Shown: positions 10,090 through 32,664, counted from the stretch's first letter. The stretch: DNA of 64,000 nucleotides from Sporichthya polymorpha DSM 43042 (GCF_000384115.1 NZ_KB913029.1:5245057-5309056), one strand, 5' to 3'. Numbers and translations: made by a program. The notes: generated by a model not told the origin, from the letters alone.

Positions 10090-10095
10090 GGCAGT

Positions 10096-11727: not shown

Positions 11728-11741
11728 GTCCCGACCTCCGG

Positions 11742-11814: not shown

Positions 11815-11880
11815 CGGCGTGGCGGGCAGTCTAGTGCCCGCGGCCACAGTCCCAGGTCAGCGAGGGTGGAGGGACCGCCG

Positions 11881-12327: not shown

Positions 12328-12337
12328 GCCCTTGGCC

Positions 12338-13354: not shown

Positions 13355-13466
13355 GATGGGCCCCCCTCGACTTCTCGCCCCGAGTTGTCGGCGTTCCGGA
13401 GGGTGATCTGAAGGGGCCGGACGGAGGATTGCGCCCGGCCCGGACGATCGGGGTCAATTGCTGGCC

Positions 13467-14021
13467 ATGTCGCGTTTTCGTCCGACCCCGGCCGGGGTCG
13501 TCGCCACCGTCGCCCTGGTCGTCGCCTGCTCCGCCGGCTCGGCCTACGCCGCCACCCAGATCACCGGCAAGGACGTCAAGGACGGGTCCCTGACCGGCAG
13601 GGACGTCAAGGACGGCTCGCTCGGGCTCAAGGAACTGGCTCCCTCCGCCCGCGTCCCGGGCCCCGCCGGCCCGGCCGGGAAGAACGGCAAGGACGCGATC
13701 CAGCCGACCTTCCGCGGCAAGGGCGCCGGGTTCACCTGGAGCCCGCTCACCGGGACTCAGGGCGCCCAGTGGTGCCTCCGCAGCACCGTCACCGCCGCCC
13801 GAACCGCCGGCGCGCCCGCCGGAGCCAGCCTGCTGGACAGCGTCCTGGTCGTGACCCCGGCGGATTCCGCGACAGCCGCCCTGCTGCAGACCTTCTCCTG
13901 GTCCGCCCAGCCGACCTCCGCGACCCAGTTCACCATCAACGCCTGCAAGATCGAGCGCTCCGGCGTCGGGCCGGCGGCGGCTCCCGGCGCCGTCAACTAC
14001 ATCGCCCACCCGGCCGGGTGA
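13467..14021 (+). CDS. Secreted protein with GKDVKDGSL repeats and short collagen-like stretch
   Basis: A 184-residue exported protein. After an N-terminal signal peptide (hydrophobic VVATVALVVACSAGSAYA, cleavage near AYAA) come two copies of a nine-residue repeat (GKDVKDGSL, GRDVKDGSL) and then GPAGPAGKNGKDA, a short Gly-X-Y run. The rest (about 85-184) is a small beta-rich domain with two Cys (WCLRS and NACKIE) that may form a disulfide. The repeat and Gly-X-Y arrangement recurs in actinobacterial surface proteins of unknown function. ATG at 13467 is preferred to the earlier TTG because it places the signal peptide normally. Confidence 0.72.
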   Translation: MSRFRPTPAGVVATVALVVACSAGSAYAATQITGKDVKDGSLTGRDVKDGSLGLKELAPSARVPGPAGPAGKNGKDAIQPTFRGKGAGFTWSPLTGTQGAQWCLRSTVTAARTAGAPAGASLLDSVLVVTPADSATAALLQTFSWSAQPTSATQFTINACKIERSGVGPAAAPGAVNYIAHPAG

Positions 14022-14051
14022 CCTCGGCCGTTAGGCTGTCCCCCGCACCTC

Positions 14052-14125
14052 GCGGGTGTAGCTCAATGGCAGAGCCCCAGCCTTCCAAGCTGGTCATGCC
14101 GGTTCGATCCCGGTCACCCGCTCCA
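14052..14125 (+). tRNA. tRNA-Gly (anticodon UCC), CCA encoded
   Basis: Acceptor GCGGGTG/CACCCGC, anticodon stem CCAGC/GCTGG enclosing CTTCCAA (anticodon TCC), T-arm GGTTCGATCCC, discriminator T and an encoded CCA. An integrase remnant faces it 14 bases away, so its 3' end is the likely attachment site of a former integrated element. Confidence 0.95.
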
Positions 14126-14139
14126 CGCTCCACCGCAGG

Positions 14140-14616
14140 TCAACCCTCGAGCTCCGCGTGACCCATCCGCCGCATCAGCTCGGCCAGGCTCGCCTCGGTC
14201 GCGGCCGCGAGGGTGTTACCCGAGTGCCGCAGGTCGTGAAAGTGGAGCTCCCGGGACAGGTCGGCGCCGGCGACGGCCTTGCGCCGGATGGCGGTGAAGT
14301 TGTTGCGCCGCGGGGCCGCACCGTTCGGACCGACGAAGACGCGACCGGCGGGGCCCGGCTCGGCTAAGCGCTGCAGGTGCCAGCCCAGGTCGGGGACGAT
14401 CACGTCGGAAATGGCGACGGTGCCCCGCCCGGCGGGCTCCGGGCTCGCCTCCATTCCCCCGCCCTTGATGGGGCACGGGTTCTGGCGGATCAGGCCGTCC
14501 TCCACGGCGGTGGTCATGATCGCGCGGAGCAGCCGGTACGACTTCGCCACCGTCACCGGGCCGACGGGCGTGCAGCGGGTCCAGGTGCGCGGCCTGGGTT
14601 GCGCAGGACCGCTCAC
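14140..14616 (-). pseudogene. Tyrosine recombinase (phage-type integrase) remnant
   Basis: The 158-codon frame keeps only pieces of a tyrosine integrase. There is part of the core-binding helix (SYRLLRAIMTTAVEDGLIRQNPC) and the box II region HFHDLRHSGNTLAA...LAELMRRMGH, which contains the HxxR motif. The first catalytic Arg box (normally LR.GEL) is missing between NPCPIKGGG and VIVPDLGWHL, and the frame stops after GHAELEG, before the catalytic Tyr. The N-terminal DNA-binding domain is also absent. It points toward tRNA-Gly, the usual geometry of an integrase at its attachment site, and overlaps the DUF5615 gene by GTGA. Confidence 0.85.
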
Positions 14617-14984
14617 GCCCGCTCGATCGGAAGCCTCCGAATGCGGATCCGCATCTCGTCGATGGTCACGACAGCGCCACCACGCAGACGGTCCTCGGCC
14701 ACGCTCAACACGTCGAGGATGACGCTGGCCCGTTCCCGGGTTCGACGGTGGCCGCGTCGCAGCAGGATCACGCTGGGTCCGGCCGCTCCGCTCAGCGCGA
14801 GGAGCGTTCCGAAATCGGTGTCGGCGGTGACCACGATCCGGTCCTCAGCCAGCGCGCGGCCGAGCACCTCCGCATCGGGCGCGCCGCCCATCCCCAGGTC
14901 GAGCACGTGCGTGGCGTCGTGACCGGCACCGCCGAGCAGGCCCACGAGCCCCTGCTGCAGCGACTCGTCGACCAGGAATCTCAC
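14613..14984 (-). CDS. DUF5615-family PIN-like toxin candidate
   Basis: A 123-residue PIN-like (Mut7-C type) protein. Acidic residues expected for metal binding are visible in MRFLVDESL at the N-terminus and VVTADTDFGTLL in the middle, followed by SVILLRRG. Proteins of this family are usually encoded directly after a DUF433 protein, as here, and the pair is regarded as a type II toxin-antitoxin-like module. The GTG start overlaps the DUF433 stop (GTGA), and its own stop overlaps the integrase remnant start in the same way. RNase activity is inferred from the fold only. Confidence 0.82.
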   Translation of the reverse strand: MRFLVDESLQQGLVGLLGGAGHDATHVLDLGMGGAPDAEVLGRALAEDRIVVTADTDFGTLLALSGAAGPSVILLRRGHRRTRERASVILDVLSVAEDRLRGGAVVTIDEMRIRIRRLPIERA

Positions 14985-15211
14985 GCCGTGTGCGGCAGCG
15001 GCAGAGTGGATTGATCGACCGCGGCGGCGGCGAAGCGGAGCGCATCGCTGATGTCAGCTGCGGTCAGCTGCGGGAAGTCAGCGATGATCTCCGCCGCCGT
15101 CATCCCCTCCGCGACCATGCCCACCACGGTGGCCACCGGAATCCGCGTGCCCCGAATGCACGGGACGCCAGCCATGATCCCCGGGTCGGCCGCGATCCGC
15201 TCGAACGCCAT
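14981..15211 (-). CDS. DUF433-family antitoxin candidate
   Basis: A 76-residue protein whose sequence follows the DUF433 pattern: MAFERIAADPGIMAGVPCIRG with GTRIPV, then VGMVAEGMTAAEIIADFPQLTAADI, a helix-turn-helix-like DNA-binding region. It starts with ATG at 15211 and is coupled to the downstream PIN-like gene. It probably represses the module and neutralises its partner. Confidence 0.82.
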   Translation of the reverse strand: MAFERIAADPGIMAGVPCIRGTRIPVATVVGMVAEGMTAAEIIADFPQLTAADISDALRFAAAAVDQSTLPLPHTA

Positions 15212-15366
15212 GTCCCGCAGGGTAGTCGCTCCCGTCCAGCGCGCGCCGCAAGCAGACGGGATGAGCAGACGCAGCGATGGGCTGCCGATTACGGCTCTAT
15301 AGAGAATCAAGGCGCCGGCGCCGCCGAGGTAGGGCGCGAGCATGCGCTCGCCGGGTCCAGAACCAG

Positions 15367-15796
15367 CTACGCGCCGGGCTCCTGGCCCCACGGGTTCAAC
15401 ACCGGCACTCCTAGAAGCTCGAAGTCGGCGACGTTTCGAGTTGCGACGGCAAGACCGTGAGTCAGAGCGGTGGCAGCAAACCAGCGCGTCCCTCTCGGGT
15501 CGCGGGTCGGGAACGTGAAGCGTCGCGGCGCGTCGGACGACGTCCGAGGGTCGATCGGCAGCACTCGACCTTCGAAGGCCGCCAACAACTCCTCGTCGAA
15601 CCAGCGGCGCAGGACCGCGCCTTGGCTCTCGTCGCGGCGCTCGATGCGCGCCGATCTCGATCTCCATGACCGTGATCACGCTGACGGACAATTCGTGGGT
15701 GATCTGTCGCTCGGCCCAGGACCGGACCGGTTCGGCGATTCGCTGCCGGGACTTGCGCAACTCGCTGATCACATTGGTGTCGAGCAGGTAGCTCAC
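15367..15796 (-). pseudogene. vapC-type PIN toxin pseudogene with several frameshifts
   Basis: The product of a VapC PIN nuclease can be reconstructed only by switching frame. GTG at 15796 opens VSYLLDTNVISELRKS and runs to VMEIEIGA. Near 15646 the match moves to another frame (IERRDESQGAVLRRWFDEELL to LPID), near 15549 it returns to the first frame (DVVRRAATLHVPDPRPERDAL), and near 15480 it moves again (AATALTHGLAVATRNVADFE to the stop at 15367). All PIN landmarks (DTN, E, TRN.ADF) are present but no single frame holds them. The GTG overlaps the stop of the Phd-like antitoxin. This is a decayed toxin unless the sequence has three errors. Confidence 0.8.
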
Positions 15797-16032
15797 AGAT
15801 CAGGAGCCGTCAGCCGCAGGTCCATCCTCACGTCGGGAAGCTCGATGTCGTCGTCGGCCGACAACCAGTCGACGATGGTGCGCCGATCGACGAGCAGCCG
15901 GCGGTACTCCTGGATCGATAGCAGGACGTGCGAGGGTTCGCCGCGATCAGTGATGATCACCGGCTCGTTCGTCGCCGATCGCTTGGCGGCGCTGACATCC
16001 TGATTGAACTCGCGGGACGAGATCGTCGTCAT
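15793..16032 (-). CDS. Phd/YefM-family antitoxin
   Basis: A 79-residue antitoxin with the family start TTISSREFNQDVSAAKRSA, then PVIITDRGEPSHVLLSIQEYRRLL, which form the DNA-binding fold, and a C-terminal toxin-wrapping tail (DDDIELPDVRMDLRL). ATG at 16032 is chosen because GGGAGG lies 6 bases upstream; a GTG two codons earlier is possible. It remains intact although its partner vapC is broken, a state often seen in decaying toxin-antitoxin loci. Confidence 0.88.
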   Translation of the reverse strand: MTTISSREFNQDVSAAKRSATNEPVIITDRGEPSHVLLSIQEYRRLLVDRRTIVDWLSADDDIELPDVRMDLRLTAPDL

Positions 16033-16074
16033 GGCCACCTCCCTCCAGCTCGCTCCGGTCGGCGAGATGCGGTC

Positions 16075-16488
16075 CTAGCGTGCGAGTCGAAGCCGCTCGA
16101 CGTCCGGCCGGTCGCCGTACACGGAGTGGATGCGCTCGAAGTCCTGGTCGTCGTGCAGGACGGTCAGCCGGTGCTCGACGGCCAGGGCGGCGATCAGCAC
16201 GTCAGGCAGAGAAACGGTGCGATGAAGCTTGGCTCCGACCAGCGCCTCCATGATCTCCATCGCGATGTCCTCCGACCGCGGTGTCGCGTTCAGGGTCAAG
16301 AGCGGGGCCAAGAGATCAGTTTTCATCGCCGGCCAGTGGTTCGCGTCCCGGCTGGACACGGCGACCTCCAGCGACGTGGGAAGTCCCACCCAGACCCGGC
16401 CACGATTGATGCGCTCGAGCCAGGTCGCGTAGTCCGGCGAATGCGGCAGCTTCCAGAGCGCGGACTTGTCCACGACCCAATCGGTCAC
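16075..16488 (-). CDS. PIN-domain toxin, VapC type
   Basis: A 137-residue PIN-domain ribonuclease. Metal-binding acids expected for the fold are in WVVDKSALWKL (near residue 7), the central SLEVAVSSRD, SLPDVLIAALA and LTVLHDDQDFERI. Length and order match the VapC family. Its start overlaps the end of the antitoxin gene by four bases (16485-16488), the usual coupling. Unlike the neighbouring vapC it is intact. Confidence 0.9.
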   Translation of the reverse strand: MTDWVVDKSALWKLPHSPDYATWLERINRGRVWVGLPTSLEVAVSSRDANHWPAMKTDLLAPLLTLNATPRSEDIAMEIMEALVGAKLHRTVSLPDVLIAALAVEHRLTVLHDDQDFERIHSVYGDRPDVERLRLAR

Positions 16489-16703
16489 GACCAGGCTGCC
16501 CGCATCACGTCCTCGTCACCCAAGTCGGACGCGAGGGCGGCGGCGGCCGCAAATCGGTCCTGGCTGGCTTCGGGGCGAGCCTCACGTACATGGGTCGTGA
16601 GGACCTCGACGACGTACGCATTTCGGCTGAGCCCGTGCTGGGCCGCAATCTGGTCCAGCTTCTCGGCGACCTCGTCCGGGAGGCCACGGATGGGGAACGC
16701 CAC
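16485..16703 (-). CDS. Ribbon-helix-helix antitoxin, VapB type
   Basis: A 72-residue antitoxin. The N-terminal VAFPIRGLPDEVAEKLDQIA and SRNAYVVEVLTTHV form a ribbon-helix-helix DNA-binding domain; the C-terminal half (about 45-72) is the acidic toxin-binding part. GTG at 16703 has GGGAGG 8 bases upstream. A TGATA/TATCA dyad just upstream is a probable autoregulatory operator. Confidence 0.85.
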   Translation of the reverse strand: MAFPIRGLPDEVAEKLDQIAAQHGLSRNAYVVEVLTTHVREARPEASQDRFAAAAALASDLGDEDVMRAAWS

Positions 16704-16718
16704 GACACACCTCCCGCT

Positions 16719-16738
16719 TGATACCACTCATGATATCA
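16719..16738 (-). promoter_or_regulatory. VapB operator/promoter candidate
   Basis: Inverted repeat TGATA...TATCA spanning 20 bases, 15 bases upstream of the vapB GTG. On the gene strand it reads TGATATCA followed after four bases by TGGTATCA, and contains TATCAT, a plausible -10 hexamer. Ribbon-helix-helix antitoxins typically bind such paired words. Confidence 0.5.
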
Positions 16739-16813
16739 CCCGGCGGAGGCGGTTCTGAAGCCAGCTCCTGCAGCCGGACTCCCCCGTTCGGTCACTCGCG
16801 GGCACGCGGGCGA

Positions 16814-17035
16814 TCAGGCGAGCACTTCGATGTCCACGCCGGCCCACGAAACCCGCTGGCCCGCGCGGATCTTCTTCCCGCGCCGGGTCTCGACCTCGCC
16901 GTCCACGGTCACGTGGCCGTCGACGATGAGGAGCTTCGCCTCGCCGCCGGTGCCGCACAGCCCGGCGAGCTGGAGCAGCGACTGCAGCAGCACGAACTCC
17001 TGGCCCTCGAGGTGGAACTCCCGCGTGTTCGTCAT
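16814..17035 (-). CDS. S4-domain RNA-binding protein, 73 aa
   Basis: A stand-alone S4 domain: EFVLLQSLLQLAGLCGTGGEAKLLI, then VDGHVTVDGEVETRRGKKIRAG, the alpha-L RNA-binding motif with the typical V.VNG..E.RRGKK pattern. Small proteins of this type (YbcJ-like) bind structured RNA or ribosomes; the target is unknown. It starts 10 bases after the stop of the sortase-like gene on the same strand. Confidence 0.85.
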   Translation of the reverse strand: MTNTREFHLEGQEFVLLQSLLQLAGLCGTGGEAKLLIVDGHVTVDGEVETRRGKKIRAGQRVSWAGVDIEVLA

Positions 17036-20041: not shown

Positions 20042-21394
20042 TCAGCGCGAGCGCGTCCGCCCGGGCACCGCGCCGAACCGCGCGACCAGGACGACCACCC
20101 CGGCCAGGAGCAGCGGGGCGTAGAGCCACTCGCCCCGCGCGCCGGTCGGACTCCCGCTCAGCGCGACGCCGAGAACCTTCGGCAGGGCCTGCCCGGCCAC
20201 GACCTCCCCGACCGGGACGAGCGCGCCGTCCGCACCCAGCTGGAGCACCGCCGACGGGACCGCCGCCGCGTCCGCGGCAAGTCCCGCGGGCAGTGCGGCG
20301 GTCAGTGCGGCGGGCAAGCGGTCGTCCAGCGACGGAACGATCGCGGTGTCGGCGACGCCGTCCGAGACGGCGGCCCCGTCCGTCGCGGCGGCCGTGCCGG
20401 AGCCGGCCGCTCCCGCCGCCGTGCCGAACCCGATCCTCGCGACGCCCGCGCCGACGGAGGCCCGGCCGAGCACGTAGGTGACCGTGAAGGTGCCGGCGCC
20501 GCTCGGGCTGTCCTGGGTGGTCGTGACCATCAGACCGCCGATCGAGTACGTCGTTCGGCCGGTCTCGTCCTTGTCGGTCACCACCGGCGCGAGCTCGAGC
20601 GCGATGCCGGCTGCGTTGAGGGCGCTGTTCGCCCCGGCGATCGCGTCCTCGCTCGACATGCCCTGGCCGAGGTAGCGGAACCCGCTCTGGTCGAACCCGA
20701 ACTCCTGGCCGTTCACGGCGAACCGGCCGAACGTCTTGCTCTCGACCTGCGCGGTCCGCCCGACGGTCTGCTTGATCGAGGCGATCGCGGTCGAGTGCCC
20801 CACCTCGAGCGGTCCGCTGACGAAGCCGGACGAGCTCCCCGACGCGACGGCGGACACCGTGGTGCCGGTGCTCTCCGTCGTGGCGTTCGCGGTCTGCTGC
20901 TGGTTCGGCGCCGGGATGCTCCCCGGGGCGCCGTAGGACGCCGACGAAGACGCCCCGTCCTGGGCGCTGCGAGACTCGATGCGGCCGAAACCGAAGTCCT
21001 CCGAGGCTTCCGGCGTGCCCGTCGAGGAGGTCGAGATGTAGCCGGGCAGGACGGCGAACGGGATCTGCAGGTCGGGGGCTCCGAACTGGTTCGGGATCCC
21101 GTTGAGTGTCCCCGGCAGGTACTGCACGGTGTTGCCCCAGTACGGCATCCCCGCGTACCCGGTGCTCCCGCCGGAGCTCTTCGTCTCCGCCGCCGCGGTC
21201 AGGGAGCCGGCGTCGTTCTTCGGCGACACCGGGATCTCGTCGCCGTTGACCTCGAAGTAGAACGCGTCACCGCGGGCCGAGAGGTTGTAGCGCGTGTCGT
21301 CGGCCGCGGCCGGACTCGACGCTCCGAGCACCAGGGCCGACGTCCCGATCACGCCGAGCGCTCCCAGGCCGGCCACCCATCGCGACGCCCTCAT
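20042..21394 (-). CDS. Secreted, C-terminally membrane-anchored protein of unknown function
   Basis: I do not recognise a named family. The 450-residue protein has a signal peptide (GLGALGVIGTSALVLGASSPAAA), a large Ser/Thr/Gly/Ala-rich outer part (about 33-410), and a C-terminal transmembrane helix (LYAPLLLAGVVVLVARFG) followed by a short basic tail. The outer part contains an Asp-, Tyr- and Phe-rich beginning (DTRYNLSARGDAFYFEV) and a repeat-poor beta-like middle. Its ATG overlaps the livF stop (ATGA), so it is translationally coupled to the importer. A role in substrate capture at the cell surface is an inference from that coupling. Confidence 0.75.
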   Translation of the reverse strand: MRASRWVAGLGALGVIGTSALVLGASSPAAADDTRYNLSARGDAFYFEVNGDEIPVSPKNDAGSLTAAAETKSSGGSTGYAGMPYWGNTVQYLPGTLNGIPNQFGAPDLQIPFAVLPGYISTSSTGTPEASEDFGFGRIESRSAQDGASSSASYGAPGSIPAPNQQQTANATTESTGTTVSAVASGSSSGFVSGPLEVGHSTAIASIKQTVGRTAQVESKTFGRFAVNGQEFGFDQSGFRYLGQGMSSEDAIAGANSALNAAGIALELAPVVTDKDETGRTTYSIGGLMVTTTQDSPSGAGTFTVTYVLGRASVGAGVARIGFGTAAGAAGSGTAAATDGAAVSDGVADTAIVPSLDDRLPAALTAALPAGLAADAAAVPSAVLQLGADGALVPVGEVVAGQALPKVLGVALSGSPTGARGEWLYAPLLLAGVVVLVARFGAVPGRTRSR

Positions 21395-22089
21395 GACGAC
21401 AACGACCCGAGATAGCTGTTCATGATGGTCTCCTCACTGATCTCCCCGGGCTCGCCGGCAAAGCTGATCCGGCCGCGGTCGAGGATGTAGACGAAATCGG
21501 CCATGCGGAGCGCCTGACCCACGTACTGCTCGACGAGCAGCTGCGCGACGCCGCGGCGTCCGAGATCGGTCAGGTACTCGAAGATCTCCTCGACGATCTT
21601 GGGCGCCAGGCCCATCGACACCTCGTCGAGCAGGACCACGTGCGGGTTGCTTACGTAGGCGTGGGAGAGCGCGAGCATCTGCTGCTCCCCGCCGCTCATC
21701 GTCCCGGCGATCTGACGGGCCCTCTCCCCCAGTCGCGGGAACGTGGACGCCGCGATCGCGAGTCCGTGCCGGTACCGGCCCGGCGGTGACTGCAGCAGGA
21801 CGTTGTCCGCGACGGTCAGGGAGGGAAAGATCCCGCGCCCCTCCGGCACGTGGATGACGCCCTTGCGGGCGAGCTGGTGCGGCGCGGCTCCCGTGACGTC
21901 GACGTCGTCGACGATGATCTGCCCCGAGTACGGCTTCAGCAGCCCGGAGGCCACCCGCAGCAGCGTCGTCTTTCCCGCGCCGTTCGGCCCGAGCAGGGCA
22001 ACGGTGGCGTTGTTCGGCACGGTCAGCGAGACGTCCCGCAGGACCGTCCCGGTGTCGTAGCCGGCCGTGATGTTGCGCAGCTCAAACAA
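21391..22089 (-). CDS. livF: Branched-chain-type ABC importer ATPase LivF
   Basis: A 232-residue ABC ATPase of the LivF type. Walker A is GPNGAGKTT, signature MSGGEQQMLALSHA, Walker B HVVLLDEVSMGLAP, and the LivF-specific VPEGRGIFPSLTV is present. The TTG at 22089 gives [17 protein letters not shown]; it overlaps the livG end by 8 bases and has GGAGG 5 bases upstream. It pairs with LivG to power the LivH-LivM permease. Confidence 0.93.
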   Translation of the reverse strand: MFELRNITAGYDTGTVLRDVSLTVPNNATVALLGPNGAGKTTLLRVASGLLKPYSGQIIVDDVDVTGAAPHQLARKGVIHVPEGRGIFPSLTVADNVLLQSPPGRYRHGLAIAASTFPRLGERARQIAGTMSGGEQQMLALSHAYVSNPHVVLLDEVSMGLAPKIVEEIFEYLTDLGRRGVAQLLVEQYVGQALRMADFVYILDRGRISFAGEPGEISEETIMNSYLGSLSS

Positions 22090-22849
22090 CGGAGGCCTCC
22101 CCGAGGTACGCGGCCTTGACCAGGTCGCTGGAGAGGGCCTCGCGGGTCGTGCCCCTGTAGATGACCTTGCCGAAGTCGAGCACGTAGATCTGTTCGCAGA
22201 TCTCCGACACCAGCGCCATGTCGTGCTCGACGAGCAGAATGCCGTGACCGGTCTCGGCCACCCAGTCGCTGAGCACCGCACCGAACGCCTGGGTCTCGGA
22301 GACGTCCAACCCCGACGACGGCTCGTCGAGCAGGAGGAACCGGAACGGGGTGGCGATGGCCCGGGCCAGTTCCACCAGACGACGTTGCCCGGTGGACAGG
22401 TCGCCGACCACGCGGTTCGCCAGGTCGGCGATCCCGCAGCGGCCGAGTGCCTGCTCCGCCCACCCGTTGATCTGCCGCGTCTCCCGACGGGTCGAGTGGA
22501 TGAGCCCGAGCGGCCGGGAGCCGGACAGATGAGCGGCCGGCCCGCAGACGACATTCTCACGCACCGTCAGACTTTCGAACAGCTCCATGCGCTGGAACGT
22601 CCGGCCCAGGCCGTGGTGCGCCCGCCGTGAGGTCCGCAGCGCGTGCAGGTCGTGCCCGCCGAGCCGGACCGTGCCGGACCGGGGCCGGTTGCGCCCGGTG
22701 CAGGCGTTGAAGAACGTCGTCTTCCCGGCCCCGTTCGGCCCGATCAGCCCGGTGATCTGCCCCGCCCGCGCGGACAGGGAGACGTCGTCGACGGCGACGA
22801 TCCCACCGAACCGCACGGTGACGTTCGCGACCTCGAGGTCAGTGCTCAC
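22082..22849 (-). CDS. livG: Branched-chain-type ABC importer ATPase LivG
   Basis: A 255-residue ABC ATPase of the LivG type with [16 protein letters not shown] (Walker A), [12 protein letters not shown] (LivG-specific), [14 protein letters not shown] (signature) and [11 protein letters not shown] (Walker B). GTG at 22849 overlaps the permease stop (GTGA). Together with LivF it forms the ATPase heterodimer. Confidence 0.94.
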
Positions 22850-24918
22850 GATCGGGCCCTCCCACGCTGACCAGCACCGGCGCCGAGGCGTCCGCCGGCC
22901 GCACCGGGAGCGGCTCCTCCCGGTCGCCGCGGCAGTCCAAGCCCGTAGGGCTCCGCCTCGCGTTCCCGACCGCGCGGGCCACACAGCACGTTCCAGTTCA
23001 GCGCCGGCCAGATCGCGACCAGGATCGCGAGCGCGCCGAACATGACGCCGCGGTACTCGATCATGGTCGGGTGGTCGAAAGGCGGGTAGATCTTGATGAC
23101 CTGGTAGACGAACGCCGCGACCAGCGGGGACAGGATCGGCCGCCGTCCGCAGAACCCGAGCACCGCCACCATGATCAGCGAGGTGGTGTAGTCGAAGACG
23201 CCACCGGGTGAACCGCTCGCCGACTGGGTCACGCCCGCCAGGACGCCGCCACCCACACCGGCCATGAACGCCGACAGGCAGAACACCAGCACGCGCATCA
23301 CGTTGATGTTCGCCCCGTGCGCGGCCAGCGCCGTCGGCGAGTCCGCGAGCGCCCGCAGCAACGTTCCCAGCCGGCTGCGCCGGACCAGCAGGACGATCGC
23401 GGCCATCAGGAAGAACACCGCGAGCGCCAGGTAGTAGTAGTTGCGCTCGTTCTCGAAGTCGACGCCGAGCAGCGACGCCGCCCGGCCCTCGACCGGTTCA
23501 GCGGTGGCCGTGCCCGGGACGTAGAATTCGGTACCCGGCCGGGGGTGCTGCACCAGCGCGCCGACGTCGAACATGACCGGCGCGAGGTAGAAGGCCTGCT
23601 GCAGCAGGATGCCGAAACCGAACGTCGCGATCGCCACGTAGATCCCGGCCAGTCGGATCGCGGGAATCGCGACGACGGCGCCGAACGGCACCGCCACCAG
23701 GCCGCCGAGCAGGATCGCGACCGGCCAGGAGACCGTCCGCCCACCGACCACGGGGAGCCAGTCGAAGAACCCGAGCGTCATGAGCTTGCCGGAGACCGTG
23801 GCACCGATCGCCGCAAAACCCATGTGGGCCAGGGAGATCATCCCCGACATGTAGAGCAGCATCCCCAGCGACAGGAAGATGATCGCGTAGGCAAGAAAGG
23901 CGCTGTAGGTGGTGATGTCGGTCTCGCCCACCACGTGCGGCACCAGGAGCAGCACCGCAGCGAGACCGGCCAGACCCGTGCCGGTGACGCGGGGCGAGAA
24001 GCTGCGTGGGGCCTCGAACCGGCGCACGTTGCGGATGCCGCGTTCGGTGAGCAACCGCGCCGGCACGAACAGGAAGACCAGCAGGAGCACGAGGAACGGA
24101 ATGTTCCGCGGCAGGCTCTGCAGGAACAGCGAGTCGGTCTTCTGCGCCTGCGCCGGGAAGTAGTTCACCATCACGCCGATGGCGAAGGCGCCGGCCACCG
24201 TCAGTGGCAGGTTCTGGAACAGCCCCACCGCCGCGGCTCCGTAGGCCGCGATGACGATCAGCACCAGGACGTTGACCGACACCCCGAGCTTCGGGGCCAG
24301 CAGCATGCCGGAGATCGAGGCGAAGCAGGACCCCAGAATCCAGGACAGCCGGCGCACCACGGCGGGGTTGGACTTCTGCAGCGCCAGCAGGTCGGGGTCG
24401 TCCACGACCGCGGTCATGGCCTTGCCGATGCGGGTCCGCCCGAAGAACAGGAACAGACCGCCCGCCGCCGCGAGGCAGAACACCGTGACGAGCATGTCGC
24501 CGTAGGAGATGGTGACGTCCCCGAGGCGTGGCCCGTTGGTGGGGAGGAAGTCCCCGCTCTTCTTGTCCGCGGCCCCGTAGATCGCCGTCATCAACGACTG
24601 CAGCAGAACCATCAGGCCGACGGTGGCGACGACCGTGGTTACGGTCGGTGCCGAGGCCAGAAGCGACCCCAGGCGTTCGAGGACGAGCCCGCCGAGGACA
24701 CCGACGACGAGCAGGCTGATTGCGAACGCCAGCGGCCACGGCCAGTCCTGCTCGACGTACCCCTCGTAGAAGACGTACGCGGCGGTCGCCGCCAAGGCAC
24801 CGTGCGCGAAGTTGAACACGCCGGACGTCTTGTAGGTCAGCACGAGGCCGAGAGCGGCCAGGGCGTAGACGGAGCCGTCGGCGATGCCCGGCACGAGGTA
24901 GTTCAGGAACGAGTTCAC
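22846..24918 (-). CDS. LivH-LivM fusion permease
   Basis: A 690-residue membrane protein that joins both permease subunits of a Liv-type importer in one chain. The N-terminal half (about 1-300) is LivH-like ([28 protein letters not shown]); the C-terminal half (about 325-650) is LivM-like ([25 protein letters not shown]). A basic loop ([13 protein letters not shown]) separates them. The final 35 residues are Gly/Arg/Pro-rich and cytoplasmic. GTG at 24918 overlaps the stop of the small membrane protein upstream. In many bacteria LivH and LivM are separate genes; the fusion fixes a 1:1 ratio. Confidence 0.92.
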
Positions 24919-25373
24919 GGGCGGCACACCCCACAGGGCCGGCGACCCGCCCGCTCGTGGCCGGCGCGGTCGGACACGGGCCAGCCCCGGCCCTGCGCCA
25001 TCGAGCATTCCCGCCGGTGGAAGTGCACGAGACCCTCACCGGCCACGAACCCGGCCGGGTCGGCCGATCGGGTCCGGGCCGTCGCCCCCGTCACGCCAGG
25101 CGCGGCCGGTACCGGGCTCAGCAACTGGTCACGCCGGACCGCCACCCGGCGCCGGCCGTGGACCAGCAGGAGCAGGCCCGCGGCTCCGCCGAGCACGACG
25201 CCGACGGTCGCCACGGCCAGACCCGGTTCCTGGTCCGCGTAGACCTTCTCGTTCGCCACGACCGCGGTCCCGGCGAGGAACAGGACCGCGCCCAGTGCGG
25301 TGAGCACCCCGTGGACGAGGTGCGCCCGCACCGACCACAGGGGCGCGGCGACGGGAGGGCTAAGCGAGTTCAC
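24915..25373 (-). CDS. Small two-helix membrane protein with His/Cys-containing tail
   Basis: No known family recognised. The 152-residue protein has two hydrophobic segments (GVLTALGAVLFLAGTAVV and LAVATVGVVLGGAAGLLLLV) and a roughly 75-residue tail. The last 40 residues contain His and Cys in the order HFH, C, H, C..C (ending RRPCGVCRP), which might bind a metal. GTG at 25373 lies inside the 3' end of the preceding gene (14-base overlap), and its stop overlaps the permease start. Tight coupling suggests an accessory part of the importer. Confidence 0.72.
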   Translation of the reverse strand: MNSLSPPVAAPLWSVRAHLVHGVLTALGAVLFLAGTAVVANEKVYADQEPGLAVATVGVVLGGAAGLLLLVHGRRRVAVRRDQLLSPVPAAPGVTGATARTRSADPAGFVAGEGLVHFHRRECSMAQGRGWPVSDRAGHERAGRRPCGVCRP

Positions 25374-25752
25374 GGAACGCCACCGGCGTGCGGTCGCGGA
25401 CCTCGGAGATCTCGGGGACCTCGGAGATCTCGGGGATCTCGGGGATCTCACGGTCGGTCCGGGCGGCCGCCGGCGGTTCCGCCCAGCGCAGGACACCGCC
25501 GGCCAGCATCCGCTCGATCCGGTCGAGCTTGCGCCACTCGTCCCGGAGGTCGGCGGACACCCACAGCGTCACCCCGAGCGCGAGCAGGAACAGGCCACCG
25601 AGACCGCCGGAGGTGATGTACCGCGTCTGCTCGGCGAGCAGCTGTGAGTCGGCCACGCCGGCGTACCCGGCGAGCAGGCACACGGCACCGGCCACGGTCA
25701 GACCGATCGCGAGGACGCGGTCCCACTGACTTCTGAGCCAGGACAGATCCAC
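25360..25752 (-). CDS. Small two-helix membrane protein with EIPEIP repeats
   Basis: No known family recognised. The 130-residue protein has two hydrophobic helices (VLAIGLTVAGAVCLLAGYAG and LGGLFLLALGVTLWV) and a cytoplasmic-looking tail carrying repeated I/V-P/S-E units (EIPEIPEISEVPEISEV), encoded by a short GC-rich tandem repeat at about 25395-25450. It starts four bases after the stop of the receptor gene and has the same topology as the next gene, so the two may form a heteromeric accessory of the importer. Confidence 0.72.
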   Translation of the reverse strand: MDLSWLRSQWDRVLAIGLTVAGAVCLLAGYAGVADSQLLAEQTRYITSGGLGGLFLLALGVTLWVSADLRDEWRKLDRIERMLAGGVLRWAEPPAAARTDREIPEIPEISEVPEISEVRDRTPVAFRELA

Positions 25753-25756
25753 GCCG

Positions 25757-27364
25757 CTACCCCCGAGCCTTGGCTTGCGGGTCGCTGGGGGCGAGGACGT
25801 CGGTGCACACCGGCTTCGATACCGCCTTGACCCAACCCGTGTTGTCCGCGTTCGAGATCGCGGCGTACAGGCAGTACGGGACCCGCGGGTTCTGGTCCTT
25901 GCCGAACGTCAGCGGCGGCGTCAGCCCACCGAGGGTCGTCCACTGCTGACCCTGAAAGGTCCAGAGGCCCTCGAGCAGCTGCTGCGTCGTCGGGTTCTCG
26001 GCCGACAGGCCGGCGGAAGCGGCGACCAGCATCGCCCCGCTCGCCCAGCCCATGGCGGCGGTGCCACCCGAGGTGAAGCCCGGGTTGAACTTCTTGATCG
26101 AGGCCTGCCAGTACTTCTCGGCCGGCGTCGAGTTCGCGAACCACGGGAAGTGGTTCATCGGCACGTAGGCGTTGCCCAGCCACTTGTTGCCCTGCAGGAA
26201 CTGCTTCTCGTTGCCGACGCCGAGCGGGTAGGGCAAGACCTTCGGGTGGTAGCCCACCTGAGTGCACGACCGGGCGAACCGGTGCTGCGAGGCCGCGTCG
26301 AAGGACAGACCCAGTGCTTCGACGCCGGCGTTCTTGAGGTCGAGGCACTGCTGCACGTACGACGGGGCGGTGATGGAGACCTGGATCGTCTTCTTGACCT
26401 TCGCGCCCATCATCGGTGCGAGTTCCTGGAACGCGCGTTCCATCTGTTCGCACGCCCGGGGCACCTCGATGCACCAGACCTGGCCGATGTTCGGGGTCTT
26501 GAAGTGGTTCAGCGCCGCGTCGATGTAGCCGTACGCCATCGCCTGCACACTCGAGCCCTGCGGGAACATCAGAGGATTGGTGAACCACGTGTTGTTGGTC
26601 AGGTCCGAGCCCAGGATCGGCACGCCGTACTTGCGGATGACCGGGGCCACCGCGTCGACGGTGAGCAGTTGGATGTTGCCGACGAACGCCAAAACCTTCT
26701 TGTTCTGGATCATCTGCTGGACCTTCGTCGACGCCGTCGCCGGGTCGCCCTGGTCGTCGTCGACGATCAGGTTGATGCGGTGACCGTTCAGGCCGCCGCA
26801 CGCATTCTGCGAGGTCGCGAACGTCTCCAGCGCCGAGCGCACCGGCGAGAACAGCTCACCGAGGACGCCGGACAGCGTGCTGACGTTGCCGATGTTGACC
26901 GGCGAGAGGTGGGCCGGCTTGCAGACCGCCTTGCCGCCGAAGATCGGCGCCGTCTCGACCGTGCGCTGCACGGCCGCGGCGAGGCTCGATCCGGCCGCAC
27001 CGGCGGCCGCACCGGCGCCCTTGCCCTTGGATCCGCCCGTGGCGGCCGCGCCGGTCCCGGTCGCGGCCGCAGCCCCGCCCGAGCCCGTGGGCGCCGCGGC
27101 CGTCCCGGTGGCCGCGGCGCCCGTGGCGGTGTCGGCCCCGGACACCGCGGCGGCATCGGTGGCGGCCGCGCCAGAAGTGTCGGCCTGCTCCGCACCGCCC
27201 GTCAGGTCGGTCGTCTCGGCGGCGCCGGTCCCGGCATCGACGATCGCTGACGGTGCGTCAGCGCCCTCGATCGCGGATCCACCGCATCCGGCTACGAGGC
27301 TGCCCGCCACGATCACCGCGACGGCAGGCCCGAGGCCCCAGCGGAATCGTCTGCGTGTCGTCAT
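25757..27364 (-). CDS. Liv-type ABC importer receptor lipoprotein
   Basis: A 535-residue periplasmic-binding lipoprotein. Lipobox LVAGC lies near residue 27. It is followed by about 100 residues of Ala/Gly/Thr/Ser-rich linker ending SKGKGAGAAAGAAGSS, then a Peripla_BP_6-type domain from about residue 150 (INIGNVSTLSGVLGELF start region, VDDDQGDPATASTKVQQMI). Four or more Cys in the domain (AVCKP, QNACGG, VWCIE, QQCLD) suggest disulfides. ATG at 27364 has GGAGAAG 7 bases upstream. Despite the Liv class, the ligand need not be an amino acid; the adjoining P450 hints at another organic compound. Confidence 0.88.
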   Translation of the reverse strand: MTTRRRFRWGLGPAVAVIVAGSLVAGCGGSAIEGADAPSAIVDAGTGAAETTDLTGGAEQADTSGAAATDAAAVSGADTATGAAATGTAAAPTGSGGAAAATGTGAAATGGSKGKGAGAAAGAAGSSLAAAVQRTVETAPIFGGKAVCKPAHLSPVNIGNVSTLSGVLGELFSPVRSALETFATSQNACGGLNGHRINLIVDDDQGDPATASTKVQQMIQNKKVLAFVGNIQLLTVDAVAPVIRKYGVPILGSDLTNNTWFTNPLMFPQGSSVQAMAYGYIDAALNHFKTPNIGQVWCIEVPRACEQMERAFQELAPMMGAKVKKTIQVSITAPSYVQQCLDLKNAGVEALGLSFDAASQHRFARSCTQVGYHPKVLPYPLGVGNEKQFLQGNKWLGNAYVPMNHFPWFANSTPAEKYWQASIKKFNPGFTSGGTAAMGWASGAMLVAASAGLSAENPTTQQLLEGLWTFQGQQWTTLGGLTPPLTFGKDQNPRVPYCLYAAISNADNTGWVKAVSKPVCTDVLAPSDPQAKARG

Positions 27365-27368
27365 GTCG

Positions 27369-29024
27369 TCACTTCTCCGAGGCGAAGACGCGCGCGACCA
27401 GGGCCGAGTTCGCGAAGTCACGGAAGACGAACCACTTGCCGTCCCGCAGTTCGATGATGTGCGCGAAGTCCGACTCGAACTCGGTCCCCTTCAACGTCCG
27501 GAACTTCAGGTGTCCGAACACCGCGAGGTGGTCACCCTGTTCGATGATCAGCTGCGGATCCATCGCGAGCACCTCCACGGAGCTGCCCACCCGCTGGAGG
27601 AACTCACCGAACCCCGCGGCGCCGTGGTACGTGCCGGCGTAGGGCACGTCGTCGGTGCCGTAGTAGTACGTCTCGATGTCCGGGTGGATGTTGGCCATCA
27701 CGGTCTCGGCGTCGCCGGCGGGGACGGCGGCGTACATCGTGCGGGTCGTCCGGACGTTGAGGCTCTCGGTCGAGGTGGGGGCGGTCATCGCAGTGCTCTT
27801 TTCGTGGAGGACGATGGGAATGCGGGTTCGGCTGTGCTGCAGGAGAGTGGCGGTCTGGGGGACGGGCTCCGACGGCCCGCGCTCCATCCGCTCGAAGCGG
27901 TCGAACAACGCGCCGACCATGACCTCGACCTCGAGGGTCGCCAGCGGGGCGCCGAGGCAGTAGTGGATGCCGAGGCCGTAGGTCATGTGCCGGTTCGCGT
28001 TCGGCCGGTCGAGGTCGAAGCGCTCGGGGTCCGGGAAGACCTCGGGGTCGTGGTTCGCGGCGGCGAAGAACAACGCCACCCAGTCCCCCGCCTTGATCTG
28101 CGCCTCGCCCACCTGCACGTCGCGGGTCGCGACGCGGAACAGCCGCTGCGGCGGGCCGGTCAGGCGCAGCGTCTCGTCGAGGAAGGCCTTGATCAGGCTG
28201 CGGTCCTCGCGCACGCGGGCCGCGGCCTCGGGGTGGTCGAGCAGCGCGTCGACGACGTTCGCGCCGAAGTACATGCTGGTCTCGCTGCCGGCGACGACCA
28301 GCGTGATGCAGAACCGGACGATCTCCTCGAAGGTCAGCTTCTCGCCGTCCGCCTCCGCGAGCAGCAGCGCGTCGATCAGGCCGTCGCCCGGTTCCTCACC
28401 GGCCGCGAGGGCCTCGGCCCGCGCCTGACAGAGCGCCACGAAGTAGCCGCCGAGCTCCAGGTTGGAGGCGTTCCGCTCCTCGCCGGTGAGGTCGGCGGAG
28501 AGCATGAACGCGTTCGCCCACCGTTCGTACTTCGGGGCGTCCGAGTCGGGAGCTCCGAAGAACTTGCACATGACGACGGCCGGGACGTGGGCGCACAGCT
28601 CGTGCACCGCGTCGATTTCCTGCCCGGCCGGCAGGTCGGCGACGAGCTGCCCGACCCGCTCGACGAGCCACGGCCGCATCGCCTCGACCCGGCTGCGGGT
28701 GAAGACGGTGTTGACGACCTTGCGGTGCGCAGAGTGCAGCGGCTGGTCGGTGTTGACCAACATCAGTGTCGGGGCGTCACTCGCCTCCTGCAGGGGGTCG
28801 CGGGAGGAGAACGTCTGGTGGTCCCGGGCCGCCTCGCGGACCTGCTCGTGCGTGAGCAGCGCCCAGGCCACCACGGGCTCGTCGACGCCGGGCACCGTTC
28901 CGGGCGGGTAGTCGACGTAGCCGGGGACCGGTGAGTACGGGCGCAGCGCCGCGTAGGCGGGATACGGATTCGCGATGACCTCGGGTGTGGCGAGGTCGGT
29001 CGCGGCGAACTCAAGAATTGACAT
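27369..29024 (-). CDS. Cytochrome P450 fused to an NTF2/SnoaL-like domain
   Basis: A single 551-codon frame with two domains. Residues 1-410 are a soluble bacterial P450: I-helix VVAGSETS, the ExxR in DETLRL, and the heme loop YGLGIHYCLG with the Cys ligand. After RIPIVLHEKSTA comes an NTF2/SnoaL-like domain of about 135 residues (TRTMYAAVPAGDAETVMANIHPDIETYYYG to the end). ATG at 29024 has GAAGGA 6 bases upstream. An internal in-frame ATG at 27788 could start the second domain alone. Such a P450 needs separate redox partners, none of which is in the window. It lies four bases before the importer receptor gene. Confidence 0.88.
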   Translation of the reverse strand: MSILEFAATDLATPEVIANPYPAYAALRPYSPVPGYVDYPPGTVPGVDEPVVAWALLTHEQVREAARDHQTFSSRDPLQEASDAPTLMLVNTDQPLHSAHRKVVNTVFTRSRVEAMRPWLVERVGQLVADLPAGQEIDAVHELCAHVPAVVMCKFFGAPDSDAPKYERWANAFMLSADLTGEERNASNLELGGYFVALCQARAEALAAGEEPGDGLIDALLLAEADGEKLTFEEIVRFCITLVVAGSETSMYFGANVVDALLDHPEAAARVREDRSLIKAFLDETLRLTGPPQRLFRVATRDVQVGEAQIKAGDWVALFFAAANHDPEVFPDPERFDLDRPNANRHMTYGLGIHYCLGAPLATLEVEVMVGALFDRFERMERGPSEPVPQTATLLQHSRTRIPIVLHEKSTAMTAPTSTESLNVRTTRTMYAAVPAGDAETVMANIHPDIETYYYGTDDVPYAGTYHGAAGFGEFLQRVGSSVEVLAMDPQLIIEQGDHLAVFGHLKFRTLKGTEFESDFAHIIELRDGKWFVFRDFANSALVARVFASEK

Positions 29025-29147
29025 CGCGCGTCCTTCGGCGTGGGGATGCGCGAAACCGTAGATATCGCCGAACGAGTCGCCCATGTCCTCACGGGAGCCA
29101 TTTGCGCCCGTGATCTATCGCCGGAGGAGCGATTTGTCCCCTGCGGG

Positions 29148-30350
29148 TCAGGCGTCGAGGAGCCGATGGATCAGCAGGGCCGCCTCGACCGCCGCGCGGC
29201 GCCCGGCCAGGGGTCGACCGAGCAGCTCCTCGGCCCGGCGGACACGCTGTTCGACGGTCTTCTCGTGCAGCGTCAACCGGGCGGCCGCCCGCTTGTGGCT
29301 CGCCCCCTCGGCGAGGTAGGCCTCGAGCGTCTCCCGCAACCGGGCGGTGGTGGCGCCGGCGCCGGCGAGGGCCCCCAGTTCGGCGGTGGCGAACCGCGCG
29401 GCGGACTCGGGATCGGCCAGCAGGGTGGACCCGAACCCCGTCGCGGCGAACGACACCAGCCGGCTGCCGGCGGCCCGGAGCGCCTGCCGCGCCTGCAGGT
29501 GCGACTCGCGGAACCCGTCGAGGCCGTAGCCGGGGTTGCCGAACGCTCCTCGGCAGTTCGGCGGGAGCACGCAGTCCTCCAGCGCCTCCAGCGCTGTCGC
29601 CCCCGGCGCCTCGACAGAGCTCACCCACCCGCAGACCGACCGGTCCGTCGCCCGCATCAGCAGGGGCTGACCGGCTCCCAGGATCTCCGCGATCTGCCGG
29701 ACGACGCCCTCCAGTGCCGCGACGTGGGCGCTGGGCTCCTCCACCGGGTCCGGCCGCAACACGACCGCGACGTGATGCCGCCGCAGTTCGTGCCGCATCC
29801 GGCGGCTCGCCTCGTCGCTGTCGACGGCCTGGCCGGCCAGGACGCCGCGGATCGCGTCCTCCGCGGCTGCGGCCTGGCTCCGCTCCCAACGGCGCCGTTC
29901 GTCCTCGTAGGCCGCGACGACGTGGACCCGGACCGCGTCGAGGTAGGTCGAGACGAAGTCGGTGGACCAGGTCACGAGCCGCTTCAACTCGTCCGGGTCG
30001 TTGACGTTCTCGAAGACGACGTCGACCCACTGGCGCCACAGCTTCGCCTGGCCGACGTGGTAGCACCGCAGCAGCGTCGGCAGCGCGACGCCCCGATGCA
30101 CCATCAGCCGCGCGAAGTCCGTGGCCTGCGCCGGCGCCTCAATCCCTTCCGGCGGGATTCCGAACCGCAATAGGGCCGCCATCGCCCCGATGTGCGCGAT
30201 CGCGTTCGTCTCGGTGGCCGCGTGCATCTCGGCGTCCTGCGGCATCTCGTGCACCGTCGCCATGATGTGCGTCGAGAGCTCGGGACCGAGGTCGGTCAAC
30301 TGCGTCGCGACCCGCGCGGCCCACTCGGAGACCTCAGCCGGCGTGCCCAT
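29148..30350 (-). CDS. PucR/CdaR-type transcriptional regulator
   Basis: A 400-residue regulator. The N-terminal 160 residues are helical; the middle resembles the GGDEF-like domain of CdaR proteins (HVAVVLRPDP to VSFAATGFG); the C-terminus is the PucR helix-turn-helix (LRETLEAYLAEGASHKRAAA, then LHEKTVEQRVRRAEELLG). PucR regulators commonly respond to catabolic substrates. It lies 123 bases upstream of the P450-importer operon on the same strand and is its likely regulator. Confidence 0.88.
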   Translation of the reverse strand: MGTPAEVSEWAARVATQLTDLGPELSTHIMATVHEMPQDAEMHAATETNAIAHIGAMAALLRFGIPPEGIEAPAQATDFARLMVHRGVALPTLLRCYHVGQAKLWRQWVDVVFENVNDPDELKRLVTWSTDFVSTYLDAVRVHVVAAYEDERRRWERSQAAAAEDAIRGVLAGQAVDSDEASRRMRHELRRHHVAVVLRPDPVEEPSAHVAALEGVVRQIAEILGAGQPLLMRATDRSVCGWVSSVEAPGATALEALEDCVLPPNCRGAFGNPGYGLDGFRESHLQARQALRAAGSRLVSFAATGFGSTLLADPESAARFATAELGALAGAGATTARLRETLEAYLAEGASHKRAAARLTLHEKTVEQRVRRAEELLGRPLAGRRAAVEAALLIHRLLDA

Positions 30351-30497: not shown

Positions 30498-31628
30498 CTA
30501 CTCGTCGCCGTAGTCCTCGCCCGTGTCGCTGTACGGGGCGTAACTCGGCGAGGAGAGCCGGTCGTCGCCGTAGCGAAGGTGCGGGGCACGGTTCGTGACC
30601 GGCCAGAAGGAAACCTCGTACCGCTCCCCCGACCGGCCCTCCACCTCGTCGTAGCCGTTGTCCGGCACCCGACCGGAAGCGAGGACGCGCACCCGGTAGA
30701 GCCCCGGGCGCGCCGGCACGAAGGCGTTCTCCGCCCACCACAGCCCCAGCGGGCCGAAGGCGTGCAGCGGCTCGGTGATCTCGAAGGTCTCCTCCTCGCC
30801 GACGTCCCAGTCGCCGAGTCCCTCGGACAGGGGAGCCGGAGCCGCGGCGAAGGCACGCACCGTCAGGTCGACGTTGCCCCAGCTGACGCCGGTCCGGATC
30901 ACGACCGCACCGCCACTGACGCCGAGCACCTGCTCCTTGAGCCAGGACTTTTCGTCGACGGGGTAGGCGTCGAAGGGCGCCAGCCAGACCTGGTGCTCGA
31001 AGGCCTCAGCGAAGTGGCGGGTTCCTGCCCGCGTCGCCGTCCCGGGAGCCCTCGGGCCGGCGAGAACCTTCTGCGCCTTCGCCACCTGGCGCTCGATCAG
31101 CGCGATCGTCTCCCGTTCCGTGGGAACGGACTCCGCCACCTCGGGCTCGTCCGGCATCGACTCTGCGACCGCGAGCCAGTCCCGCAGCTCTTCGAGGACG
31201 AATGCCCACTGGGCGCGGCTCAGGACGATCGTGACCGATCGGTCCTCCGCGGGCTTCTCCCCGAGCTTCGCGAGTTGCCCCTCCGCGAGCTCGATGACCG
31301 CCGACGCTTTCGACGCCTTCGGCAACTCATCGCCCGGGTCCTCCGTCGTCACCGAGACCGTGCTCGCCAAGGCGGAGTCGACGAGGTGCCAGTTCGCGAG
31401 CGGGAGCCGGACCGGGATGCGCTCCGCCGGGTCACCCACCGGGGCCGGCCTGGCCGAGGGCGACGGCGCCCCGGCGCTGGGCGACAGCGGCGCCTCGACG
31501 ATCGGCGACCGGTCCGGACCTGCGTCGGAAGGAACGACGGAATCGCCGCCGATGCCGCAGCCAGTCAGGCCGAGGAGTGCGACGCCCGCCCCGCCGAAGA
31601 TGCGCGCGCGAAAGCTGCGTCTGTCCAC
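30498..31628 (-). CDS. Tat-type lipoprotein of unknown function
   Basis: No known family recognised. From GTG at 31628 the 376-residue product begins VDRRSFRARIFGGAGVALLG and has a lipobox (LTGC), giving a twin-arginine lipoprotein signal of normal length. A Pro/Ser/Ala-rich spacer (about 30-70) precedes a mixed domain with the charged segment TERETIALIERQVAKAQKVL and a C-terminal beta-rich part ending in Tyr/Asp/Glu-rich residues. A TTG 48 bases upstream would add a leader and is less likely. It is probably anchored to the outside of the cytoplasmic membrane. Confidence 0.72.
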   Translation of the reverse strand: MDRRSFRARIFGGAGVALLGLTGCGIGGDSVVPSDAGPDRSPIVEAPLSPSAGAPSPSARPAPVGDPAERIPVRLPLANWHLVDSALASTVSVTTEDPGDELPKASKASAVIELAEGQLAKLGEKPAEDRSVTIVLSRAQWAFVLEELRDWLAVAESMPDEPEVAESVPTERETIALIERQVAKAQKVLAGPRAPGTATRAGTRHFAEAFEHQVWLAPFDAYPVDEKSWLKEQVLGVSGGAVVIRTGVSWGNVDLTVRAFAAAPAPLSEGLGDWDVGEEETFEITEPLHAFGPLGLWWAENAFVPARPGLYRVRVLASGRVPDNGYDEVEGRSGERYEVSFWPVTNRAPHLRYGDDRLSSPSYAPYSDTGEDYGDE

Positions 31629-31698
31629 GGCCGCAGGATGACGGACCTCGGCGCGATCGGTGGTTGATCGGAGCAAGTCGGGACGTTGGTCCTCAGGT

Positions 31699-31761: not shown

Positions 31762-32664
31762 CTACAGCGGGCGGGTGGCGAGGGTGCGTTCGAAGCGTTC
31801 GGTGGCGCGGGTGGCGCGGCGGGCCTCGTAGGCGATGTCGAGGTACTTCACCCGCTCGGGGAGGACGGCGTTGGCGCGGCCGAGGACGGTGCCGATGGCG
31901 CGGAGGCGGCGCTCGTCGAACCCGCTCCAGGACAGGCCGAGCTTGGCCCGGGCGGCGGGCGGGAGGGTCCCGACCATCACGAGCCGGTTGATCTCGCCGC
32001 CGAGAGCGCCGGCCGGCCTCCACAGCCGCCGGAGCGGGGCGGGGAGCATCGGCGGCGGGGGCGTGCGGGCCGCGAGGTCGAGGACGTCGTGCGCCGTCGG
32101 GTGATCGACGAGCGTCCGGGAGATCATGCCGTCGTAGTACGCCCAGAACGCGGCCGGCGTCGGCGGGAGCAGGTCCTCACGCACCTGAAGGATCCGGCAC
32201 ATCTGCAGGACCTCGGCGTACGCCTGCTCGAGCTGAGCCTCCGTCAGGGGACGCGGCAGAAAGTACCGCGAGTACGACGTGATCGCGTGAAAGGCCGTCA
32301 GGGGAACCCAGGCCCAGGGCTCGGCGGTCAGGGCGTGGTGCCGCTTCCCGTATGCGTCGACCGCGGACAGGTCCTTGTGCATCTCGCGCAACCGCCGGCC
32401 CTCGTCGATCGCGGTCTGCCCGCCGTAGACCCAGGTCTGCACCGAGGCGAAGCTGCGCTCCGCGCGGCCCCACGGGTCGGTGCGGAAGGTGGACCGCTGG
32501 TCGACGACGGTCCCGATCGCCGGGTGCATCACCTGCAGCACGAACGCGCTGCCGGTGACCGCGACGTAGAGCCGCTGGCCGGTCAGTTCCCAGAGGATCC
32601 CGCCGGGCTCGATGAGCTCCGGCGCAGGACGGCGCCGGGCGCCCGGGACCGTCGAGGAGGCCAT
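31762..32664 (-). CDS. Oxygenase MpaB-family protein (DUF2236)
   Basis: A 300-residue cytoplasmic protein of the MpaB/latex-clearing-protein superfamily, putatively heme-dependent. Visible signatures are LQVMHPAIGTVVDQ followed by FRTDPWGRAERSFASVQTWVYG, and AFHAITSYSRYFL in the middle. Actinobacterial members act on varied hydrophobic substrates or are uncharacterised; this one has no signal peptide, so it is not a secreted rubber oxygenase. ATG at 32664 lies 19 bases from the upstream kinase stop, so the two may be cotranscribed. Confidence 0.85.
   Translation of the reverse strand: MASSTVPGARRRPAPELIEPGGILWELTGQRLYVAVTGSAFVLQVMHPAIGTVVDQRSTFRTDPWGRAERSFASVQTWVYGGQTAIDEGRRLREMHKDLSAVDAYGKRHHALTAEPWAWVPLTAFHAITSYSRYFLPRPLTEAQLEQAYAEVLQMCRILQVREDLLPPTPAAFWAYYDGMISRTLVDHPTAHDVLDLAARTPPPPMLPAPLRRLWRPAGALGGEINRLVMVGTLPPAARAKLGLSWSGFDERRLRAIGTVLGRANAVLPERVKYLDIAYEARRATRATERFERTLATRPL

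Follow-up and report, generated by a model that had tools for sequence, protein, structure and literature searches.

Does an operon that joins a cytochrome P450 gene to a Liv-type ABC importer and three proteins of unassigned family encode one dedicated uptake-and-oxidation system, as an earlier note had proposed, or is the importer more general than its enzyme? We addressed this question in Sporichthya polymorpha DSM 43042, starting from a window of 64,000 nucleotides (the whole stretch of DNA analyzed here) in which the operon lies. The uptake of bulky or poorly soluble compounds through the wall and membrane of Gram-positive soil bacteria is largely open. We conclude that the operon holds one member of a Liv-type importer family that has three dedicated accessory proteins and serves many catabolic, possibly lipophilic, substrates.

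The operon genes are as the earlier note had described them (Table 1): the gene caller recovered the whole series, and codon composition favors those operon open reading frames that the filter listed. The genes from the P450 to the secreted protein (SEC) are tightly joined, as had been claimed; read from the sequence, gaps of 4 bases separate the P450 from the receptor and the receptor from S1, and the other junctions are overlaps (S1/S2, 14 bases; S2/permease, 4; permease/LivG, 4; LivG/LivF, 8; LivF/SEC, 4). The PucR gene lies on the same strand, 63 to 123 bases upstream of the P450 and without overlap, and the P450 itself likely starts at 29024 (551 amino acids, 27369–29024), with the ATG at 29084 as the alternative. 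A chance arrangement is excluded, because the block recurs in 23 further cassettes of the same genome and at external loci. Four features had gone unremarked, namely that LivH and LivM form a single fused protein, that the P450 frame runs on into a SnoaL_2 domain (by Pfam), that the two small membrane proteins are homologous, and that S2 has an H-x3-C...C-x2-C tail.

Table 1. Genes of the P450–importer operon, in window coordinates
Feature	Coordinates	Strand	Evidence
PucR/CdaR-type regulator, 400 aa	29148..30350	minus	Pfam PF13556 3.7e-14 (HTH_30), PF17853 1e-13 (GGDEF_2)
P450 with C-terminal SnoaL_2	27369..29084	minus	Pfam p450 8.7e-34, SnoaL_2 2.2e-11
Substrate-binding lipoprotein receptor	25757..27364	minus	Peripla_BP_6 PF13458 3.7e-40, domain from residue 155
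S1, two-helix membrane protein, 130 aa	25360..25752	minus	without Pfam or NCBIfam family
S2, two-helix membrane protein, 152 aa, GTG start	24915..25373	minus	S1 homologue
Fused LivH-LivM permease, 690 aa	22846..24918	minus	PF02653 2.2e-49, two stretches
LivG-type ATPase, 255 aa	22082..22849	minus	NCBIfam LivG 5.7e-60, below cut-off
LivF-type ATPase, 232 aa, TTG start	21391..22089	minus	NCBIfam UrtE 1.5e-54, LivF 3.4e-51, below cut-off
SEC, signal peptide and C-terminal TM helix	20042..21394	minus	without Pfam or NCBIfam family

How many importers of this kind does the organism carry? The genome (5.5 Mb, one contig) was searched with the window permease, and the neighborhoods of the paralogues were gene-called and compared. 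Two paralogues are 85 and 83% identical to the window permease and many others about 40–48%. A clade of 24 permeases, the window one included, belongs to a recurrent cassette of SEC-S1-S2-fused LivHM permease-LivG-LivF plus a receptor. SEC homologues lie beside all 24, S1 and S2 together beside 22, a fused S1-S2 beside one (L059), and neither beside the last (L056; G000:C1:1632000-1649000). This last locus retains permease, receptor, and ATPases along with a shortened SEC whose C-terminal part is missing from the alignment; from its gene content, it is apparently a decaying or reduced cassette. In four more divergent systems (L065, L067, L070, and L071), a single S protein accompanies a SEC. 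S1, S2, and SEC are all missing from the four ordinary Liv systems that this genome also encodes (L064, L066, L068, and L069). Pairwise distances among permeases, S1, S2, and SEC are correlated (Spearman 0.40–0.77, with 0 of 999 permutations as high), a comparison made within a single genome, where species history is no confounder. Whole cassettes thus seem to have been copied and to have diverged as units. The description of the three as coupled unknown envelope proteins stands insofar as they have no Pfam or NCBIfam family and belong with the importer; they are not, however, peculiar to the window operon.

Is the cassette also found in other organisms? Scanning named genomes with S1 yielded 43 loci, from Sporichthya, Frankiales, Acidimicrobiia, Actinophytocola, Streptomyces, Haloechinothrix, and Nocardioides records; S1 is present at these loci by design, and the remaining parts serve as the independent test. 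Almost all contigs of sufficient length show the order SEC-S1-S2-permease-LivG-LivF; the receptor gene either flanks the series or lies within it, SEC or the ATPase genes are displaced now and then, and gene overlaps recur, mostly of 4 or 13 bases. The 62 cassette-type permeases, own and external taken together, are accompanied by S1 in 58 cases, S2 in 57, SEC in 55, and a receptor in 49; several of the absences reflect contig ends. The search for the same gene set elsewhere, which the earlier note had proposed, thus returned it in the same order both in further cassettes of this genome and at external loci, and the small proteins are clearly not absent beside homologous importers. In one Sporichthya metagenome-assembled genome (L097), a permease shares 92% identity with one of the window genome's paralogues. 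Another locus (L104) comes from a metagenome-assembled genome labeled "Acidobacteria," a taxonomic label that may be misassigned.

S1 matches occur in 27 of 296 sampled Actinomycetota and number 28 in the window genome, 13 and 32 in two genomes of the same genus, 17 and 14 in two of the same family, and 0–3 in the other sampled relatives. In a permease-first survey of a sample of 246 Actinomycetota genomes, we read 10 distant cassettes from other actinobacterial classes. Eight have one S-type protein (weakly matched in L149), five of these eight with an H...C...CxxC tail; SEC was recognized by profile in two, and in four more its slot holds a gene for 425–527 amino acids with a signal peptide and a C-terminal helix. 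The distant cassettes without an S protein (L147 and L148) are also without SEC. Given the 24 copies in one genome and this recurrence elsewhere, what seemed an odd operon belongs to a widespread, undescribed importer type.

What are the two small proteins? Neither they nor SEC have a family above cut-off in Pfam or NCBIfam, and no credible solved relative of any of the three was found by sequence, the matches of S1 being mostly to b562 fusion chains. Profiles built from S1 only and S2 only match each other with a probability of 96.7 (E 3.6e-10). Run without iteration against 977 called proteins, the S1 profile found S1 and S2 alone, and the S2 profile found S1, S2, and one SEC at E > 0.01. 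These results rule out shared topology as the sole basis of the likeness, and we regard S1 and S2 as homologous on the strength of these profiles. The earlier note's picture of two alike two-helix proteins and a secreted, anchored one is sound and, for the pair, now one of common descent. S1 has the motif QWDR ... SADLRDEWRKL, and its residues W10, D11, R12, G29, Q42, G50, A67, D68, D71, W73, and L76 are invariant in 20 paralogues. In 37 S2 homologues, only M1, H119, C123, C147, and C150 are invariant, and the window protein carries the same tail (H119, C123, C147, and C150). These four residues are a likely metal site, their number being that of the ligands in small metal sites. The S2 structure model (pLDDT 87.8) pairs two long helices with a small ordered tail; a fold search with it returned no match with E < 0.001 and no solved relative. 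Counts of Lys and Arg (the positive-inside rule) place both termini of both proteins inside, so the S2 tail is predicted to be cytoplasmic. The tail is absent from two S2 proteins of the same genome (L047 and L051) and from the S proteins of L144, L146, and L149, and so the site is not essential everywhere. A natural S1-S2 fusion (L059:5764-6708) spans the membrane with four TM helices and retains the Cys tail. Because distant actinobacteria have one S protein, often tailed, the S1/S2 pair looks like a duplication; the simplest reading of these sequences would be an ancestral single S with a metal tail that was duplicated into S1, which lost the tail, and S2, which kept it.

The AlphaFold model of SEC (mean pLDDT 72.5, 188 residues at 90 or above) comprises a confidently modeled beta-rich extracytoplasmic domain (residues ~34–320), a disordered linker (~337–421), and a C-terminal TM helix (422–441). 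Fold searches gave weak, generic barrel matches (top Foldseek rows to porins/FadL with TM-scores of about 0.1–0.2; VIA Z at most 6.2), too weak to assign SEC to a porin or lipid-carrier fold. The receptor has a VAGC lipobox, and an Ala/Gly/Thr-rich tether of ~126 residues separates the lipobox Cys from the binding domain. Where clearly measured, the tethers of cassette receptors span about 78–147 residues; those of three ordinary Liv receptors encoded in this genome reach no more than about 30. These long disordered tethers, in the main of ~80–130 residues, together with the SEC linker suggest parts made to reach through the wall. Receptor genes are also multiplied at some loci: five stand in tandem behind one permease at L058 (G000:C1:5355000-5372000, 7868–16980), as if several substrates were served, and the visible parts of two tandem receptor genes at L065:10169-13384 are identical, marking a recent duplication.

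How firmly does the P450 belong to the importer? The protein has a PF00067 domain and the haem-ligand motif YGLGIHYCLG with its Cys ligand; its nearest solved chain is 9lw0_A (E 2.2e-133), the next best including CYP125-ancestor and vitamin D hydroxylase chains, and its next best match in its own genome is 32% identical. The P450-SnoaL fusion is not an assembly error, as the 551-residue frame is intact in a second genome of the genus, G397 (L125), at 98% identity over 551 amino acids and within the same operon. P450 and SnoaL are separate, adjacent genes in three genomes (G396, G361, and G038). In the same-genus G396 (L126), PucR, P450, and SnoaL are adjacent as separate genes, with the importer absent downstream. 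Two more distant actinobacterial genomes (L127 and L128) likewise lack an importer beside the pair, and there the P450 and SnoaL genes share a four-base overlap. Orthologues at these three loci are 50–88% (P450) and 54–80% (SnoaL) identical. The PucR gene precedes the P450 in both sister genomes (L125 and L126) too, and coupling of the P450 to the cassette was seen only in the window genome and one close relative (L125). P450 and SnoaL are thus an older functional pair that, within part of one genus, underwent fusion and became attached to the cassette. On this gene-neighborhood evidence, the P450 is a local partner of the importer cassette. Judged from the fold family, a P450 that hands its product to a SnoaL-type (NTF2-fold) enzyme would be consistent with an oxidation followed by isomerization, cyclization, or epoxide opening. 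Two further genes near the operon were observed: an MpaB/rubber-oxygenase family protein just upstream (31762–32664; PF09995, 1.1e-53), also present in G397, and a putative twin-arginine lipoprotein (RRSFRARIFGGAGVALLGLTGC; 30498–31676) without a Pfam or NCBIfam match, at whose place no gene was called in G397.

Other cassettes adjoin other enzymes. Cassette-linked genes encode AMP-ligases (5 of 63 scanned), aldehyde dehydrogenases, LLM monooxygenases, acyl-CoA dehydrogenases, SnoaL proteins, SDRs, and P450s; nitronate monooxygenase genes occur at the Haloechinothrix locus and at an Actinophytocola locus, the former also with ChsH2-like OB-fold and enoyl-CoA hydratase genes. A hydrophobic substrate is plausible from the linked AMP-ligase, acyl-CoA dehydrogenase, ChsH2-like, SnoaL, and P450 genes. 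Elsewhere in the window (54718–63168), a region with formate dehydrogenase-like genes, a MoeA-like gene, and a tungstate-type ABC receptor and permease suggests, by reading only, a molybdenum/tungsten enzyme cluster.

Taken as a whole, the evidence is probably best explained by an extended Liv-type ABC importer comprising S1, S2, SEC, and a receptor, with a P450 as its partner. The tethered receptor and the anchored, probably wall-reaching SEC would capture substrate or hand it on outside the membrane, and the fused LivHM permease with LivG and LivF would carry out its import. S1 and S2 may assemble with the permease as an adjoining membrane pair with cytoplasmic termini, and the His-Cys-Cys-Cys site of S2 may bind a metal, probably Zn, and so build a cytoplasmic docking or regulatory surface. 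The lineage multiplied the whole cassette, with different catabolic genes flanking each copy; in the window operon these are the genes for PucR and the P450-SnoaL fusion under its control, which probably oxidizes the imported compound. S1, S2, and SEC may be physical subunits of the transporter. A fuller version, which we offer tentatively and regard as less likely than not, would make them working subunits of a so far undescribed, extended Actinomycetota ABC importer. In it, the tethered receptor and a wall-reaching beta protein would bring substrates of poor solubility across the thick wall, the permease would be controlled from the cytoplasmic side by a metal-binding S1/S2 pair, and about two dozen versions would be a main route for organic substrates in one lineage.

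A single dedicated P450–importer pathway, handling one hydrophobic compound and having the small proteins to itself, would draw on the four-base coupling of P450-SnoaL to the receptor and on the identical order in G397, where the fusion is so well conserved. We nevertheless consider it very improbable: S1, S2, and SEC recur in other cassettes of the genome without the window P450, and the P450-SnoaL module occurs without the importer at L126, L127, and L128. For the dedicated uptake-and-oxidation system of the earlier note, this means that the three proteins do belong with the importer and that the system is not built round the P450; the idea of one P450-centered system fails, as the 24 cassettes lie beside many different enzymes and PucR-P450-SnoaL also stands without an importer (L126).

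The three proteins could instead be envelope housekeeping factors that help to assemble the long-tethered receptor or the permease, or control their quality, and stay outside the transport cycle; they do co-occur with long-tethered receptors, and SEC and the S proteins lack a known transport family. A general factor, however, would need one copy per cell, and each cassette keeps its own diverged copy that covaries with its permease, which makes this account unlikely. For the S2 tail alone, a thiol/redox switch or another metal or haem site that gates transport, in place of structural Zn, is a minority possibility, less remote than housekeeping: the tail's CxxC, His, and further Cys are invariant, and genes for P450s, flavin enzymes, and other oxidoreductases are common neighbors, but in the model the four-ligand spacing and small ordered tail look structural, and the predicted location is the cytoplasm, a reducing place. 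The extended importer is our preferred reading.

A conserved, widespread importer type of this kind supplies concrete candidate genes, among them three uncharacterized proteins, one with an invariant metal-type motif. Many actinobacterial "branched-chain amino acid transporter" annotations may cover the import of something else, beside flanking catabolic genes. Our literature search, whose coverage was partial, turned up nothing on Sporichthya importers, on accessory subunits of Liv systems, or on P450-SnoaL fusions, and neither a paper nor an experiment on S1, S2, and SEC as transporter subunits, on metal at the HCCC site, or on lipophilic substrates; this is weak evidence of novelty.

How does the system compare with those already known? 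It resembles the Liv/HAAT ABC importers (LivJ/K-LivH-LivM-LivG-LivF; TC 3.A.1.4; including UrtABCDE) in its Peripla_BP_6 receptor lipoprotein, its BPD_transp_2 permease pair (fused here), and its LivG- and LivF-type ATPases, and it differs in the permease fusion, the three extra conserved proteins, and the receptor's tether of ~100 residues. Unlike the E. coli-type LivFGHM and UrtABCDE equivalogs, its subunits score under the NCBIfam equivalog cut-offs (LivG 202.7/362, LivF 174/441, LivM 53/366, and UrtE 184.9/285.8 bits). The regulator is like other PucR/CdaR-type proteins in having GGDEF_2 and a C-terminal HTH_30. The P450 shares its domain and haem-ligand motif with bacterial cytochromes P450 and differs from them in the fused SnoaL_2; its parts are orthologous to the P450-SnoaL pairs of L126, L127, and L128, which are separate genes with no importer beside them; the two are fused here and in G397.
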